Of a stretch of DNA of 22,377 bases, positions 12,390-20,918 are shown piece after piece. Source of the stretch: a virus; IMG/VR virus record IMGVR_UViG_3300042568_001178, positions 1 to 22,377 of that record, one strand, 5' to 3'. How positions within the stretch are numbered: the stretch's first letter is position 1; each line of letters opens with the position of its first letter. Made by a program: the position numbers and the translations under genes. The notes beneath the pieces were generated by a model that did no database searches, was not told the origin of the DNA, and saw only the letters and a list, made by a program, of their open reading frames with translations.

Positions 12390-13676
12390 TCATGCCGGGT
12401 TGCGGGTCGCCTTCTGTCCGGTGAGGGTTTCCCACCGGCGGACGATGACGTCGACGAACCGGGGGTCGAGCTCCATGCCGTAGGCGGTGCGTCCGAGCTG
12501 CTCGGCGGCCATGAGGGTGGTGCCGCTGCCCATGAACGGGTCGTAGACGGCGGCGTCGCGGGCGCTGCTGTTCTGCATGAGGTAGGCGAAGAGGGCGACG
12601 GGCTTCATGGTCGGATGGTCCTCGCTCTTTGCCGGGCGGTCGAAGTACAGCACGGTGGTCTGCTTGCGGTCGCTGTTCCACAGGTGCGCGGCGCCCTCGG
12701 TCCAGCCGTAGAGGGCGGTCTCGTGCTGGCGCTGGACGGTCTCGGTGAGCTCGGCCGGCTCGGGGGTCTTGGCCCCGTACAGGCAGGGCTCGTGCTGCCA
12801 CTGATAATCCTGCCGGCCCATCACGAGGGCGTTCTTCACCCAGATCAGGCACTGGCGGGTGCGCTGGCCGCAGTCGCGGGCGGCGGCTCGGAAGTTGAAT
12901 CCCTCGCTGTCGGCGTGCCAGATGTACCACGCGGCGCCGGGCTTGAGGGCCTTGAAGGCGGGCGCGAGGGCGTCCTTGAGGAAGGCGCGGAACTTCTCGT
13001 CGGGCATGGAGTCGTTCTTGATCTTCATGCCCGTGCCGCCCTCGTAGTCGACGTTGTACGGGGGGTCGGTGAGCAGGAGGTCCATCTTGGCGCCGGCGAG
13101 GAGGCGGTCGACGTCGGCGGGCTTGGTGCTGTCGCCGCACAGGATGCGGTGCCGGCCGAGGGCCCAGAGGTCGCCGGGCTTGCTGATCGGGTCCTCGGGG
13201 ACCTCGGGCATCTCGTCCTCGGTGACCTTGGGGCTGACGGCGCAGTCGAGCTCGGCGAGGTCCTTGGCGTCGAATCCGGTCGCGGCGAGGAGGTTCTCGT
13301 CCTCGATGGCGATGGCGGCGAGCTGCTCCCGGAGGGCGGCGTCGTCCCATTCGGCGAGCTCGGCGGTGCGGTTGTCGGCGATGGCGAAGGCGGTCGCCTC
13401 GGCGCCGATGAGGTTGGTCCGGACGGCTTTGACGGTCCGCCAGCCGAGGGCCTTGGCGGCGGCGAGGGTGCCGTTGCCGGCGACGACCACGCCGCGGGCG
13501 TCGACGACGATGGGCTTCTGCTGGCCGAACCGGGCGAGGCTGCCCTTGATGGCGTCGAGGTTGCGCTCGGGGTGCCGGCGGACGTTGGCGGGGTCGAAGG
13601 CGAGGGTGTCGACGGCGATGTCCTCGATGGCCATCGTCAGGCCGGCCTCGAGCTCGGCGGCGGGCTTCTTGCTCAC
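12390..13676 (-). CDS. ParB-like domain fused to DNA methyltransferase (beta class, N6-adenine or N4-cytosine)
   Basis: This 428-aa protein modifies DNA bases, probably protecting the phage from restriction. Residues of about 15-110 form a ParB/sulfiredoxin-like domain (IAVDTLAFDPANVRRHPERN, then QKPIVVDARGVVVAGNGTLAAAKALGW). Residues 170-420 form the methyltransferase: CGDST near 180-184, catalytic DPPY at 204-207, HPTMKP at 354-359 and the AdoMet-binding DPFMGSGT at 379-386. The order DPPY before FxGxG is the beta class. The start is GTG 13676, overlapping the stop of the HTH gene (GTGA) with GGGAG seven bases upstream. An internal ATG at 13634 has worse spacing. The frame is open further upstream, but that part is a shadow. 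The target sequence cannot be read from the protein. Confidence 0.9.
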   Translation of the reverse strand: MSKKPAAELEAGLTMAIEDIAVDTLAFDPANVRRHPERNLDAIKGSLARFGQQKPIVVDARGVVVAGNGTLAAAKALGWRTVKAVRTNLIGAEATAFAIADNRTAELAEWDDAALREQLAAIAIEDENLLAATGFDAKDLAELDCAVSPKVTEDEMPEVPEDPISKPGDLWALGRHRILCGDSTKPADVDRLLAGAKMDLLLTDPPYNVDYEGGTGMKIKNDSMPDEKFRAFLKDALAPAFKALKPGAAWYIWHADSEGFNFRAAARDCGQRTRQCLIWVKNALVMGRQDYQWQHEPCLYGAKTPEPAELTETVQRQHETALYGWTEGAAHLWNSDRKQTTVLYFDRPAKSEDHPTMKPVALFAYLMQNSSARDAAVYDPFMGSGTTLMAAEQLGRTAYGMELDPRFVDVIVRRWETLTGQKATRNPA

Positions 13677-13990: not shown

Positions 13991-14917
13991 TCACGAGGCG
14001 GTTGCGAATTCCTCGGCGGCGATCCTGCCGCGCCAGACGGCGGCGATGTTTCGGACCGCCTTGTCGGCGAGGTCGTTGCGGAGGGAGACGGTCGGGGAGT
14101 CGCCGCCTTGGGTATGGTCGCGCCACCAGCGCCACCAGAGCTCGTGGGCCTCGTCTGGGTTGAGGCCCTTGGCCTCGACCTTGGCGATGACGGTGGCGCG
14201 TTCGGTGCAGATGCGCTCGGTGGCGTCGGCGACGGCGTCGGCGAGCACTTCCTCGACGGTGACCGGGAATCGGCTTCCGTCGTCGAGCTTGCGGAAGAGG
14301 TCGCCGGCCTCGGCCCGCTCGAGCTTGGTCGCCCACGCCGGCGTCGCCTTGGCGAAGCGCTCGGCCATCGCCCTGTCCGGCTTCCATTCCCTGACTGCCT
14401 TCTTCCCCCCCCCAATGGTGCGGGTCGCGGTCGGGGCTTCCTTGGCGGGGGGTAGGGGGGTGGTATCTCTGGTTGTGGTTGTGGTTGTAGTAGCCATCAA
14501 TTCGCCATTGGCGTTGCCATTGGCAGGGCTATTGGCGTTGCCATTGGCGACCCCATTCCCGCGTCCCCAGCGGGCCTCGGCGCCTCGGCGTCCGTTCTCG
14601 GCGGCGGTGGTGTGTCGCTCCTGCACGCGTGCTCGCTCGCGCTCCATGCGCGGGTTGATGAGGGTGGCCATTGGGGTGGCCATTGGCCCTGCCATTGGCG
14701 TTGCCATCGAGGTGAAGCGGCCTCGGACAGCCTGCCAGTCGGCCTCGGTCATCGGGCAGCGCGTCAGGGCGGCGCAGGCGTCGCGGTCGTCCGGCACGCT
14801 GCCGTTGGTCCATGCGTACATCAGCAGCTGGGTGTAGGCCCATCCCTGTGTCGGCGTCATCGTTGCCGTGCTGACGAGGAAGTCGGTCGGGTACATCGGG
14901 AACCAAGGTGTCGACAT
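13991..14917 (-). CDS. DUF1376 (YdaU-type) phage replication protein
   Basis: The 308-aa protein has the DUF1376 N-terminal domain (residues 4-60: WFPMYPTDFLVSTATM, GWAYTQLLMYAWTNGSVPDD, ALTRCPM), a family linked to phage replication initiation next to O/DnaC-type genes. A basic MERERARVQERHTTAAENG helix (91-109) and GAEARWG follow, then a low-complexity linker (121-150; Asn-Gly-Asn-Ala and Thr repeats), then a helical C-terminal domain (170-308) rich in Trp (WWRWWRDH). ATG 14917 has GGAG eight bases upstream. The frame continues upstream for 79 codons with no protein-like content. Two DNA repeat blocks inside the gene could be the phage origin. It is the first gene of the leftward block. Confidence 0.75.
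   Translation of the reverse strand: MSTPWFPMYPTDFLVSTATMTPTQGWAYTQLLMYAWTNGSVPDDRDACAALTRCPMTEADWQAVRGRFTSMATPMAGPMATPMATLINPRMERERARVQERHTTAAENGRRGAEARWGRGNGVANGNANSPANGNANGELMATTTTTTTRDTTPLPPAKEAPTATRTIGGGKKAVREWKPDRAMAERFAKATPAWATKLERAEAGDLFRKLDDGSRFPVTVEEVLADAVADATERICTERATVIAKVEAKGLNPDEAHELWWRWWRDHTQGGDSPTVSLRNDLADKAVRNIAAVWRGRIAAEEFATAS
14469..14493 (-). repeat. Hexamer repeat coding a Thr tract
   Basis: About four copies of GGTTGT on the plus strand encode the Thr-rich stretch (residues 143-149) of the replication protein. It lies just beyond iteron block 1. It could be slippage-prone, or could be the more easily opened side of an origin. Confidence 0.5.
14504..14551 (-). repeat. 12-bp direct repeats, block 1 (candidate iterons)
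   Basis: There are four head-to-tail units of 12 bases. The plus-strand consensus is GCCATTGGCGTT, with units starting at 14504, 14516, 14528 and 14540, plus a degenerate fifth. In the gene they encode Ala-Asn-Gly-Asn units. The same repeat occurs in block 2 in a different reading frame, so the DNA rather than the peptide seems to be conserved. Confidence 0.75.
14667..14707 (-). repeat. 12-bp direct repeats, block 2 (candidate iterons)
   Basis: Three units start at 14667, 14679 and 14691, plus a partial fourth. The orientation and 12-base period are the same as in block 1. Here they encode Met-Ala-Thr-Pro units. The exact 17-mer GCCATTGGCGTTGCCAT at 14691-14707 is identical to 14504-14520 but is shifted by one reading frame (187 bases apart). 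Confidence 0.75.
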
Positions 14918-18434: not shown

Positions 18435-18823
18435 CCGACGCCTTCCTGATTCTCCGGCAGCGTCTGCTGGCCGGCGGGGCTGGCGAGGTGCGTGTCCCGG
18501 CCGCGCTCCTCGCTCGGCTGCTTGACGAGGCCTCGGTGCTTCAGGGAGAGCGGGATGCCGCCTTCCGGCGCCTCGAGCACGTCGAGCGCCAGCGGCAGGG
18601 CTGGGAGGCGCATCTGCGCAGGGTCCTTGCTGGTAATCTTCCAGCTGATCTCGCCGATGACCACCGAGAAGCCCCGTCCCCGTCGCGCCCCGCTCAACGC
18701 CGAAACCGTGCAGGCGATCCGTCTGTGCAAGTCGCAGGGCATGAAGCAGTCGGTGATCGCGGCGCGGTTCGGCGTCAGCAACGCGGCCGTCAGCCTGATC
18801 GTCCGGGGACTACGACGCCGTGA
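18431..18823 (+). CDS. Small coiled-coil protein with an unconstrained C-terminal overlap (130 aa)
   Basis: ATG 18431 follows GGGGGGAGGG and overlaps the previous stop. The first 75 residues look real (MTDAFLILRQRLLAGG, VPAALLARLLDEA, a charged helix to LRRVLAG). The rest (about 76-130) is Arg/Gln/Pro-rich and is read in a different frame from the HTH gene at 18657, whose third positions are strongly GC while this frame's are mixed. The stop TGA 18821-18823 forms GTGA with the start of rusA, so translation to the end may serve to couple rusA. Confidence 0.6.
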   Translation: MTDAFLILRQRLLAGGAGEVRVPAALLARLLDEASVLQGERDAAFRRLEHVERQRQGWEAHLRRVLAGNLPADLADDHREAPSPSRPAQRRNRAGDPSVQVAGHEAVGDRGAVRRQQRGRQPDRPGTTTP

Positions 18824-18833
18824 GAAGCCCTGA
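18657..18833 (+). CDS. Small HTH protein (58 aa), overlapping out of frame
   Basis: MTTEKPRPRRAPLNAETVQ starts it, then AIRLCKSQGMKQSVIAARFGVSNAAVSLIVRGLRRREKP. Residues 15-50 are a clear resolvase/Mor-type HTH (V-x-x-I-x-x-x-x-x-x-G-x-x-x-x-x-I-A-x-x-F-G-V-S). The third codon positions are almost all G/C over the whole gene, which marks this as the coding frame in the overlap with the 18431 gene. There is no clear SD before ATG 18657. It could be a DNA-binding regulator. A frameshifted fusion with the upstream frame is an alternative. Confidence 0.65.
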   Translation: MTTEKPRPRRAPLNAETVQAIRLCKSQGMKQSVIAARFGVSNAAVSLIVRGLRRREKP

Positions 18834-19290
18834 CGCACGATCCTTCTTCGTGCATGGCCTGCCCGCGACGCAGGGCAGCAAGCGGCTCGTCCGCCTTCGG
18901 AACGGTCGCTCGGTGATGATCGAGAGCTCGAAGCATCTCGGGGAGTGGCGGCAATCCATCGCGATGATGGCACGCGGCGCCGAGGTGCCGCTGCACGAGG
19001 TCGACGTGCTCGTGAGCATTCAGGCGATCTACCTGCGCCCCGAGTCGCACTTCAAGCGCGACGGCTCGCTGCGCAGCTCGGCTCCTCCTCGCCCCGGCTA
19101 CGCCGACTGCGACAAGCTCGCCCGCGCCGTGTGCGATGCGCTCGCCGGCATCGCGTACCGGAACGACCGACAGGTCGCCCTGCTCGCGGTCGAGCGGATG
19201 TGGGCCGATGACGAGGCGCGTCCCGGCGCGTACATCTCCATCGCGCCGGCGCCGCCCGTCGGCGTCTGGGGATACTGGAAAGGCGCTTGA
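18820..19290 (+). CDS. rusA: RusA-type Holliday junction resolvase
   Basis: The 156-aa protein has the RusA start (FFVHGLPATQGSKRLV, residues 9-24) and the acidic site: Asp96/Asp98 in YADCDKLARAV (94-104), Asp106 in CDAL, and Asp116 in YRNDRQV (113-119). These fit the family pattern D-x-D-x-x-x-K/R-x-x-x-D-x-L and D-x-Q-V. It cleaves four-way junctions made in replication and RecT-driven recombination. The start GTG 18820 overlaps the stop of the 18431 gene; SD is weak, so coupling is likely. The end overlaps a promoter for recT. Confidence 0.88.
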   Translation: MRSPDARSFFVHGLPATQGSKRLVRLRNGRSVMIESSKHLGEWRQSIAMMARGAEVPLHEVDVLVSIQAIYLRPESHFKRDGSLRSSAPPRPGYADCDKLARAVCDALAGIAYRNDRQVALLAVERMWADDEARPGAYISIAPAPPVGVWGYWKGA

Positions 19291-19315
19291 CGTCATCGCG
19301 CTCGTAGGGTATCGT
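19287..19315 (+). promoter_or_regulatory. Promoter candidate for recT
   Basis: TTGACG (19287-19292), 17-base spacer, TATCGT (19310-19315). The predicted start is near 19322, about 49 bases before GTG 19371. The -35 overlaps the rusA stop codon. The spacer ends TAGGG, as does that of the 21032 candidate. Confidence 0.55.
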
Positions 19316-19370
19316 CGTGGGGGTGGTGGCAATCGTTGCCGCCGATCTCGCCATTGACGGAGTAGGACCC

Positions 19371-20378
19371 GTGGAAATCACCTCTATCGCTCGGTATGAC
19401 CAGTCGAAGATCGACTTGGTCGCTCGCACCATCTGCAAAGGCGCCTCGAACGACGAGCTGTCGTTGTTCATCGCCATCTGCGAACGCACGGGCCTCGACC
19501 CGTTCGCTCGGCAGATCTACTCCATCGAGCGCTGGGACTCGCAGCTCGGCCGGAAGGTCCGGCAGACGCAGGTCTCCATCGACGGCGCTCGACTGACCGC
19601 GCAGCGGTCCGGTGAGTACGCGGGGCAGGACGGACCGTACTGGTGCGGTCCCGACGGCGTCTGGCGCGACGTGTGGACCGAGGATTCGCTTCCGTTCGCC
19701 GCGAAGGTCGGCGTGCTGCGTCGCGGCTTCGCGCAGCCGTTGTACGCGGTCGCCGTGTTCTCGGAGTACCAGCAGACGACCAAGGACGGCAAGCTCACGC
19801 GGATGTGGTCGCAGATGCCGACGCTGATGATCGGCAAGTGTGCCGAAGCTCTGGCGTTGCGAAAGGCCTTCCCGGCCGAGCTCTCGGGTCTGTACACCGC
19901 GGAGGAGATGGGGCAGGCGGACGCCGGCGAGGCGCCCGTCCCGGTCCCGGTCGCCGTCCCTCGGGAGATGGCGGCCGCGGCGCTGCCCGCCCCGGCGCCG
20001 GCGGTCCTCGAGGCCGAGGTGGTGGCGTCGAGCTCGGTGGAGTCGGCCCTGCAGGCGTCGTCGGCCAAGCCTCGCAAGGGCAAGGCGCCGGCCAAGGCCA
20101 GCGAGGGGCACCTGCGCAAGTGGCCGGAGACCGGGACCGACGTCGTCGTCGCCGAGAAGGTGGTCGACCGCGGGAACAGCATCTCGGCGGTCCTGTGCTC
20201 GCACGCGACCGACGGCCGGCAGTGGGTGTCGGTCGGGCCGGACCTGATCGCCTCGGTGAAGCTCGACGTCCCGCTGGAGATGGATTGGCAGTGGGACAAG
20301 GCGGGCTTCTTCCGCGCCACCCGCATCAAGCCCGCCCCGGCGCCGGCGGCGGTCGCCGACGACGAGGTTCCGTTCTGA
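19371..20378 (+). CDS. RecT/Bet-family single-strand annealing protein with SSB-like tail
   Basis: The core (residues of about 5-190) shows the Bet/RecT pattern: LSLFIAICERTGLDPFARQIY, VRQTQVSIDGARLTAQRSGEYAGQDGPYW, FAAKVGVLRRGF, LTRMWSQMPTLMIGKCAEALALRKAFP. It anneals single strands in recombination. Beyond about residue 195 comes a Pro/Val/Ala linker, then a basic patch (KPRKGKAPAKA) and a beta-type domain (about 245-320), ending in ADDEVPF. The last six residues, DDEVPF, resemble the DDDIPF tip of SSB, which recruits partners. I chose GTG 19371 because an AGGA lies upstream and the frame before it lies at the predicted RNA start. It probably works with RusA and Gp157. Confidence 0.85.
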   Translation: MEITSIARYDQSKIDLVARTICKGASNDELSLFIAICERTGLDPFARQIYSIERWDSQLGRKVRQTQVSIDGARLTAQRSGEYAGQDGPYWCGPDGVWRDVWTEDSLPFAAKVGVLRRGFAQPLYAVAVFSEYQQTTKDGKLTRMWSQMPTLMIGKCAEALALRKAFPAELSGLYTAEEMGQADAGEAPVPVPVAVPREMAAAALPAPAPAVLEAEVVASSSVESALQASSAKPRKGKAPAKASEGHLRKWPETGTDVVVAEKVVDRGNSISAVLCSHATDGRQWVSVGPDLIASVKLDVPLEMDWQWDKAGFFRATRIKPAPAPAAVADDEVPF

Positions 20379-20408
20379 CGTTCCCCAGCTGAATCAAAGG
20401 AGAATCCC

Positions 20409-20918
20409 ATGAGCCTGTACGCCATCAAGACCGAATTGCTGTCCCTCACCGACGCCGCCATGCTGCACGGGCACGACTCCCCGGAGCTCGAGCAGGCGTT
20501 CGCCGAGCACCGTGCCGCGCTGGTCGGCGCCTTCGAGGCGAAGGCCGACGACTACGCGGCCCTCGTGCGCGTCTGCGAGACCCGCGCTGCGGCCCGGCGC
20601 GAGGAGGCCGAACGCATGAAGCAGCTCGCCGACGACGACGAGCGGCTCGCCGAGCGCCTGCGCTCGACGCTGCTCGATGCCATGCAGGTGACCGGGCTGC
20701 AGAAGGTCGAGACCGAGCACTTCCGGCTGGCTGTCCGCCGGAACGGCGGAAAGATCCCGGTCGTCATTCAGGACGAGGCCTCGATCCCGGTCGAGTACCG
20801 GGTCCCCAAGGTGACCGAGGTCCTTGACCGGGACGGAATCCGGGCGGCCCTCGAGGCCGGCACGGCGGTCCCCGGCGCGGTCCTCGGGGAACGGGGCAGC
20901 CGGCTGGACCTGAAGTAA
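20409..20918 (+). CDS. Siphovirus Gp157-family protein
   Basis: The 169-aa protein matches the Gp157 pattern. It has an N-terminal SLYAIKTELLSL helix, then a long helical coiled coil (EAKADDYAALVRVCETRAAARREEAERMKQLADDDERLAERLRSTLLDAM, about 43-93), a strand-rich segment with VETEHFRLAVRRNGGKIPVV (100-119), and IPVEYRVPKV (127-136). The family often sits by recombination genes such as RecT or Erf. Some members were linked to phage resistance or DNA handling, but the activity is not settled. The SD AAAGGAGA precedes ATG 20409. A strong terminator follows the gene. Confidence 0.85.
   Translation: MSLYAIKTELLSLTDAAMLHGHDSPELEQAFAEHRAALVGAFEAKADDYAALVRVCETRAAARREEAERMKQLADDDERLAERLRSTLLDAMQVTGLQKVETEHFRLAVRRNGGKIPVVIQDEASIPVEYRVPKVTEVLDRDGIRAALEAGTAVPGAVLGERGSRLDLK

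Follow-up and report, generated by a model that had tools for sequence, protein, structure and literature searches.

A phage DUF1376 gene as a putative replication initiator gene with a probable lambda-like origin read in two frames

Introduction

Iteron plasmid initiators of the RepA/RepE type and RctB are winged-helix proteins that bind repeated sites beside an unwinding element, the iterons normally being located outside the initiator gene. In lambda, the origin lies in the middle of the initiator gene O, with iterons that are inverted repeats and an unwinding tract adjoining them (PMC7466680, PMC6022878). The origins of Stx phages contain six iterons, and added iterons show up as added amino acids (PMC6022878, PMC7466680). 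The Rac prophage carries the origin oriJ, which is active but normally repressed (PMC3945230).

DUF1376 is a family of 'function unknown' encoded by many prophages, including Escherichia coli ydaU. The titles and abstracts of the DUF1376-mentioning papers in the library searched contain no link between this family and a replication origin. Should the reading proposed below be true, DUF1376 would gain a function, namely, initiation at an intragenic origin, its odd low-complexity linkers would be explained, and there would be a simple way to find candidate origins in phages known from sequence only, as well as a system in which a DNA site and its protein reader, sharing a single sequence, are coupled in their evolution.

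Results and discussion

Comparison with lambda-type origins

The window, i.e., the whole stretch of 22,377 nt analyzed here, is an entire virus record (IMGVR_UViG_3300042568_001178) and contains a DUF1376 gene with two blocks of a 12-bp repeat (Table 1). We consider it probable (about 0.82) that this is a phage replication initiator gene with a lambda-like origin inside itself; the preliminary description had already taken the repeats for a candidate origin, and the comparisons reported here support that reading. The support comes from the conservation of DNA in two frames, co-variation of the repeat unit between the blocks, confinement of the repeats to the gene, a conserved tract and replication-type neighbours in relatives. 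New are the frame and codon evidence, the joint switch of the unit, the assignment of one block to a predicted wing and the extension of the reading to further members of DUF1376.

The parallel with lambda O/ori drawn earlier holds in anatomy: as in lambda and the Stx phages, the array is intragenic, is composed of putative dyad iterons and has an adjoining low-G tract, and several DUF1376 relatives also display the lambda order of initiator followed by a P-like loader, whereas neither the window nor the relative L052 was seen to have a loader adjoining this gene. Repeated dyads that appear to be conserved as DNA are located inside the predicted initiator gene, as in a lambda-type intragenic origin. 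Unlike the lambda iterons, the DUF1376 words are shorter, follow a 12-bp spacing and form two separated blocks in two frames, one of them in a predicted wing, and the adjoining tract, instead of being simply A+T-rich, is composed of G-free hexamer repeats. In the mechanism that we envisage, the near-palindromic words would be iterons bound by the winged-helix domain of the same gene, with the initiator binding two clusters, one in its own wing-coding and the other in its linker-coding sequence; the adjacent G-free hexamer tract would then melt, and helicase would be loaded at this tract by a neighbouring or host loader. Gain and loss of sites would be tolerated by the open reading frame, since the protein segments concerned are flexible and the changes come in multiples of 12 bp.

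Table 1. Positions of the DUF1376 gene and of the features located within it (window coordinates).
Feature	Position	Strand	Remarks
DUF1376 gene, predicted replication initiator, host of the repeats	13991..14917	minus	308 aa; ATG at 14917, stop at 13991; PF07120 E 7e-8; phrog_9327 'primosomal protein' E 1.5e-11
C-terminal helical domain of the DUF1376 protein	13994..14374	minus	residues about 183-309 of P0001
C-run (14405-14413) and G-runs (14447-14452 and 14455-14460) beside the tract	14405..14460	plus	weak hairpin potential, z -1.5
TGGTTG hexamer tract, candidate unwinding/loading tract	14470..14493	plus	gene strand: poly-Thr, G-free
Repeat block 1: four units and flanking half-site GGCGACCCC	14504..14559	plus	gene strand reads N-G-N-A
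Predicted wing hairpin (strands E69-71, E85-87), loop formed by block 2 repeats	14657..14713	minus	AlphaFold2 model
Repeat block 2: three full 12-bp units and a partial one, core GCCATTGG(C)	14662..14707	plus	gene strand reads P-M-A-T/G
Segment matching the Pfam DUF1376 profile, inside the predicted winged-helix domain	14723..14908	minus	residues 5-66

The DUF1376 protein and its predicted fold

The window protein belongs to PF07120 (33.2 bits in a Pfam scan, against a curated cut-off of 30.1), and the PHROG families matched by its N-terminal domain are named primosomal protein. All 62 aligned relatives match the DUF1376 family at E ≤ 1. The Pfam scan of the window protein returned DUF1376 alone, with no match to Phage_rep_O, the profile of the lambda O protein, which was equally absent from the profile matches of the 62 relatives at E ≤ 1; by sequence, the two are different protein families, with the DUF1376 protein lying outside that of lambda O. 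A sequence search of the PDB with the DUF1376 protein yielded no relative, and no sequence relation to RctB or the initiators of the RepA/RepE type was found by this search. The C-terminal domain is present in long forms of the protein and missing from short-form relatives, which have 158-180 residues and end just past the tract.

An AlphaFold2 model built from 62 aligned domains (mean pLDDT 86) predicts elements arranged as in a winged helix, the strands being residues 69-71 and 85-87. Block 2 is predicted to encode the wing tip, i.e., the loop between these 2 strands, and block 1 encodes a disordered linker past the last helix of the DUF1376 domain. Foldseek searches gave no match at E ≤ 0.001, domain 1 of RctB being a weak, nonsignificant match, and the VIA-align matches, with Z up to 6.3, included winged-helix as well as several other common folds, so that the assignment to a fold class depends chiefly on the order in which helices and 2 strands are predicted. 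Neither Foldseek nor VIA-align showed lambda O to be a structural relative.

Two repeat blocks read in two frames

On the gene strand, the unit consists of the core CCAATGGC and four variable bases, with a period of 12 bp in both blocks. Units of the consensus GCCATTGGCGTT start at 14504, 14516, 14528, and 14540 in block 1 and at 14667, 14679, and 14691 in block 2, where a partial unit follows at 14703. Together with the half-site, the units of block 1 give the gene-strand dyad GGGGTCGCC-AAT-GGC. The codons are CCA ATG GC. (Pro-Met-Ala) in block 2, which encodes the peptide MATPMAGPMATPMAT, and.CC AAT GGC in block 1, where the core is Asn-Gly and the encoded peptide is NGNANSPANGNANG. The 12-bp repeat with its two blocks and two frames, as first reported, was reproduced in its positions, as was the exact 17-mer GCCATTGGCGTTGCCAT at 14504 and 14691, the spacing of which (187) places the copies out of frame. 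The word GCCATTGGC is present in 5 copies in the 22,377-base record, all inside the two blocks (mean 0.21 and maximum 2 in shuffles). The longest word common to both blocks of the window gene, 17 as observed, was at most 11 in 500 codon redraws that preserved the protein, and out-of-frame identical 10-mer pairs numbered 17 in this gene versus a null mean of 0.4.

Conservation of the repeats among relatives

No relatives from the window's own clade were found in a first scan of genome contigs. Scans of IMG/VR provided 27 and then 56 loci, and the 41 distinct genes, including that of the window, constitute the clade. Since the clade genes are related, counts across them do not represent independent events; so read, 28 of the 31 CCAATGG copies in the wing block are in frame 0, and 62 of the 64 copies in the linker block are in frame 1. 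The number of exact cores per gene varies, with a maximum of four in each of the two blocks, and the spacers differ among genes yet tend to match between the two blocks of one gene, the common spacer being CCAATGGCGGGG in L014 and L018, CCAATGGCCACC in L004, and CCAATGGCAACG in the window. The observed shared word was never attained by the protein-preserving null in 10 of 19 nonredundant genes, and more than half of the clade (23/41) reached the smallest attainable p (0.003) for out-of-frame identical 10-mer pairs. The wing block is missing in the relatives L006, L061/L062, L069, L071, and L076. In the CCAATGGC branch, the conserved linker NGVANG spells GGGGTNGCC-AAT-GGC, a dyad related to the AGGGTGGCT unit of the second branch described below.

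Codon usage separates the word from the residue. Within the word, Asn is encoded by AAT 98 times and by AAC once, whereas Asn after Gly in the same linker repeats is encoded by AAC 29 times and by AAT once. In the wing, the codon for Pro preceding Met-Ala is CCA in 25 of 35 cases (82/666 elsewhere), and ACG, which is used for 230 of 731 Thr residues elsewhere, is never used in the tract (0/250). That one residue in one protein segment is spelled differently depending on its position in the DNA word is the plainest evidence. As judged from frames and codons, it is the DNA of the repeat words, not the peptide, that is conserved, in two frames. Selection on DNA over the peptide had been suggested in the preliminary description, along with a comparison of homologues for a 12-mer kept as DNA while the peptide varies; the outcome was favourable, with two fixed frames kept among relatives while copy number and spacers change, and with codon choice tracking the DNA word, not the residue.

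The comparison set comprised 78 DUF1376 genes outside the clade, taken from phages and bacterial genomes; neighbouring ORFs at the same loci served as controls. A plain repeat count that does not separate frames is inflated by dipeptide repeats in the broad family, and frame-aware and control tests were therefore used. Out-of-frame 9-mer repeats at p ≤ 0.01 were detected in 27/41 clade genes, 15/78 DUF1376 genes outside the clade, and 0/200 neighbouring ORFs, and a 10-base word with at least four copies (1 mismatch, either strand) in 35/41, 19/78, and 0/120 (controls), respectively. These results bear on the alternative that the blocks are products of slippage and intragenic gene conversion in disordered segments, with no DNA function and with the likeness of the blocks reflecting concerted evolution. 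Such a history would fit the changes of copy number in multiples of 12 bp and the location of both blocks in low-confidence loop or linker regions. However, it is at odds with frames that are fixed yet different between the blocks over divergent phages, with the codon contrast within the same repeat, and with the absence of significant out-of-frame repeats from all 200 neighbouring genes tested; moreover, some genes carry inverted copies, and slippage makes no inversions. We thus regard this alternative as improbable.

A joint switch of the repeat unit

The genes L032 to L045 form a second branch, without CCAATGG. Instead, both blocks contain the dyad AGGGTGGCT-CA-AGCCACCCT, in full AGGGTGGCT-CA-AGC(C/A)ACCCT (AGCMACCCT), with one copy in the wing and about four in the linker, which is read alternately as RVAQATL and GGSSNP. 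The unit of L068, which shares its contig with L021, is of the AGGGTGGCT class too. In four records of 17-40 kb, all matches to the AGGGTGGCT unit fall within 233 bp inside the gene. A joint change in wing and linker is what would be expected for sites read by one protein, and it strengthens the claim of a DNA-level repeat made in the preliminary description. In L037 (gene nt 201-433), linker dyads of this class are spaced by 23, 34, and 23 bp, about two or three helical turns. The L061/L062 branch has a third unit, about GAGCATGCC, in three linker copies, with no copy in the wing.

It is possible, if doubtful, that the DNA-binding wing of the clade is encoded by its own binding sites, so that site and reader share the same letters, and that the linkers of the family are origin DNA. 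Were this true, a change of the iteron unit would necessarily rewrite the wing, and the wing and linker blocks would switch together, amounting to a built-in specificity lock for phage origins. The low-complexity linkers PSPSPS, TTTTTT, SQSQSQ, and NAPSNAPS of the wider DUF1376 family would then be origin DNA read as protein.

Repeats in the wider DUF1376 family

Word sharing between domain and linker was found in just 8 of the 78 other DUF1376 genes at p ≤ 0.05, so that few others share the two-block design of the window's clade; in most of the remaining genes, repeats are confined to the linker or were not found by the tests applied. Weaker versions of the repeat design are nevertheless recognizable by sequence in other DUF1376 genes, including E. 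coli K-12 ydaU. In L138, a 23-mer of the domain-coding part recurs inverted in the linker, and in L140, a 20-mer is repeated out of frame. The Rac prophage resembles the window in that ydaU is a DUF1376 gene, has the DnaC-like ydaV next to it and contains repeated TGTTCAAACA words in its linker, followed by A-rich and C-run sequence, but its repeat unit differs from that of the window.

The hexamer tract and the C/G runs

The hexamer tract and the C/G runs beside block 1 (Table 1) did not figure in the preliminary description. In the window, the G-free tract spans 24 nt and is nonsignificant on its own (p 0.21). In all 41 clade genes, the longest G-free run of the coding strand is found in the linker, adjoining the repeats, and runs of at least 25 nt are present in 35 of 41 clade genes; the corresponding numbers are 29/78 for DUF1376 genes outside the clade and 8/279 for control ORFs. 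The 36-mer with the lowest GC content falls at gene nt 330-500 in 40 of the 41 clade genes. The hexamer itself is ACAACC in the clade (poly-Thr) and TTCACC, TTCATC or CAATCA in other genes (Pro-Ser, Ser, Ser-Gln). The repeats thus appear to lie next to a strand-asymmetric and probably easily unwound tract, as in a lambda-type origin.

C-runs often come after the hexamer tract. At the site of the C/G runs, several relatives carry CCCCCCT...AAGGGGGG, a possible hairpin or G-rich structure beside the putative origin, and in the DUF1376 gene of Acinetobacter pecorum (L172), the G-free tract has grown to 140 nt of TTCACC/TTCATC repeats. The near-palindromic, weakly folding words might also suggest that the repeats act as messenger RNA hairpins, or they might serve purely as protein repeats. 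However, folding is weak for blocks and C/G runs alike (z of just -1.5 to -1.7, DNA parameters), and a role confined to the protein leaves both the codon choice and the out-of-frame reading unexplained, which renders either version highly improbable.

Gene neighbourhood and other origin signals

Replication-type neighbours are found in relatives: a gene for a loader (DnaC-like or P-like) or a helicase follows the DUF1376 gene in Rac (ydaU-ydaV), Pseudomonas phages, a cyanophage, and an Acinetobacter phage, and a DnaA-like gene does so in two Rhizobium phages. No helicase, loader or primase was recognized among the window genes scanned by profile. The turn of the GC skew near 14500-14710, proposed earlier as a check, did not materialize, as the cumulative skew climbs through this region and turns near 20.2 kb only; in a fragment of 22 kb, GC skew is weak evidence. 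Even when one mismatch was allowed, no DnaA boxes (TTATNCACA) were found in the window, which thus lacks this mark of a DnaA-dependent origin.

Directly downstream of the DUF1376 gene, a minus-strand gene (12390-13577) encodes a ParB-like N-terminal domain fused to an N6/N4 DNA methyltransferase (phrog_498, PF01555). Given this adjacency, the sites could be bound by another protein, either a repressor or this fusion protein, as an operator or partition site. Yet the arrays accompany DUF1376 in many different neighbourhoods, often with no ParB-like or methyltransferase gene annotated nearby, and the unit switches while the linkage to the DUF1376 gene persists, making binding by another protein very improbable. 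The narrower idea of a ParB site was rejected because the arrays track DUF1376 across unrelated neighbourhoods. On the strand opposite to the DUF1376 gene, a recombination cluster (18820-20918, plus) encodes a RusA-like resolvase, a RecT-like annealing protein, and a Gp157/Mu Gam-like protein.
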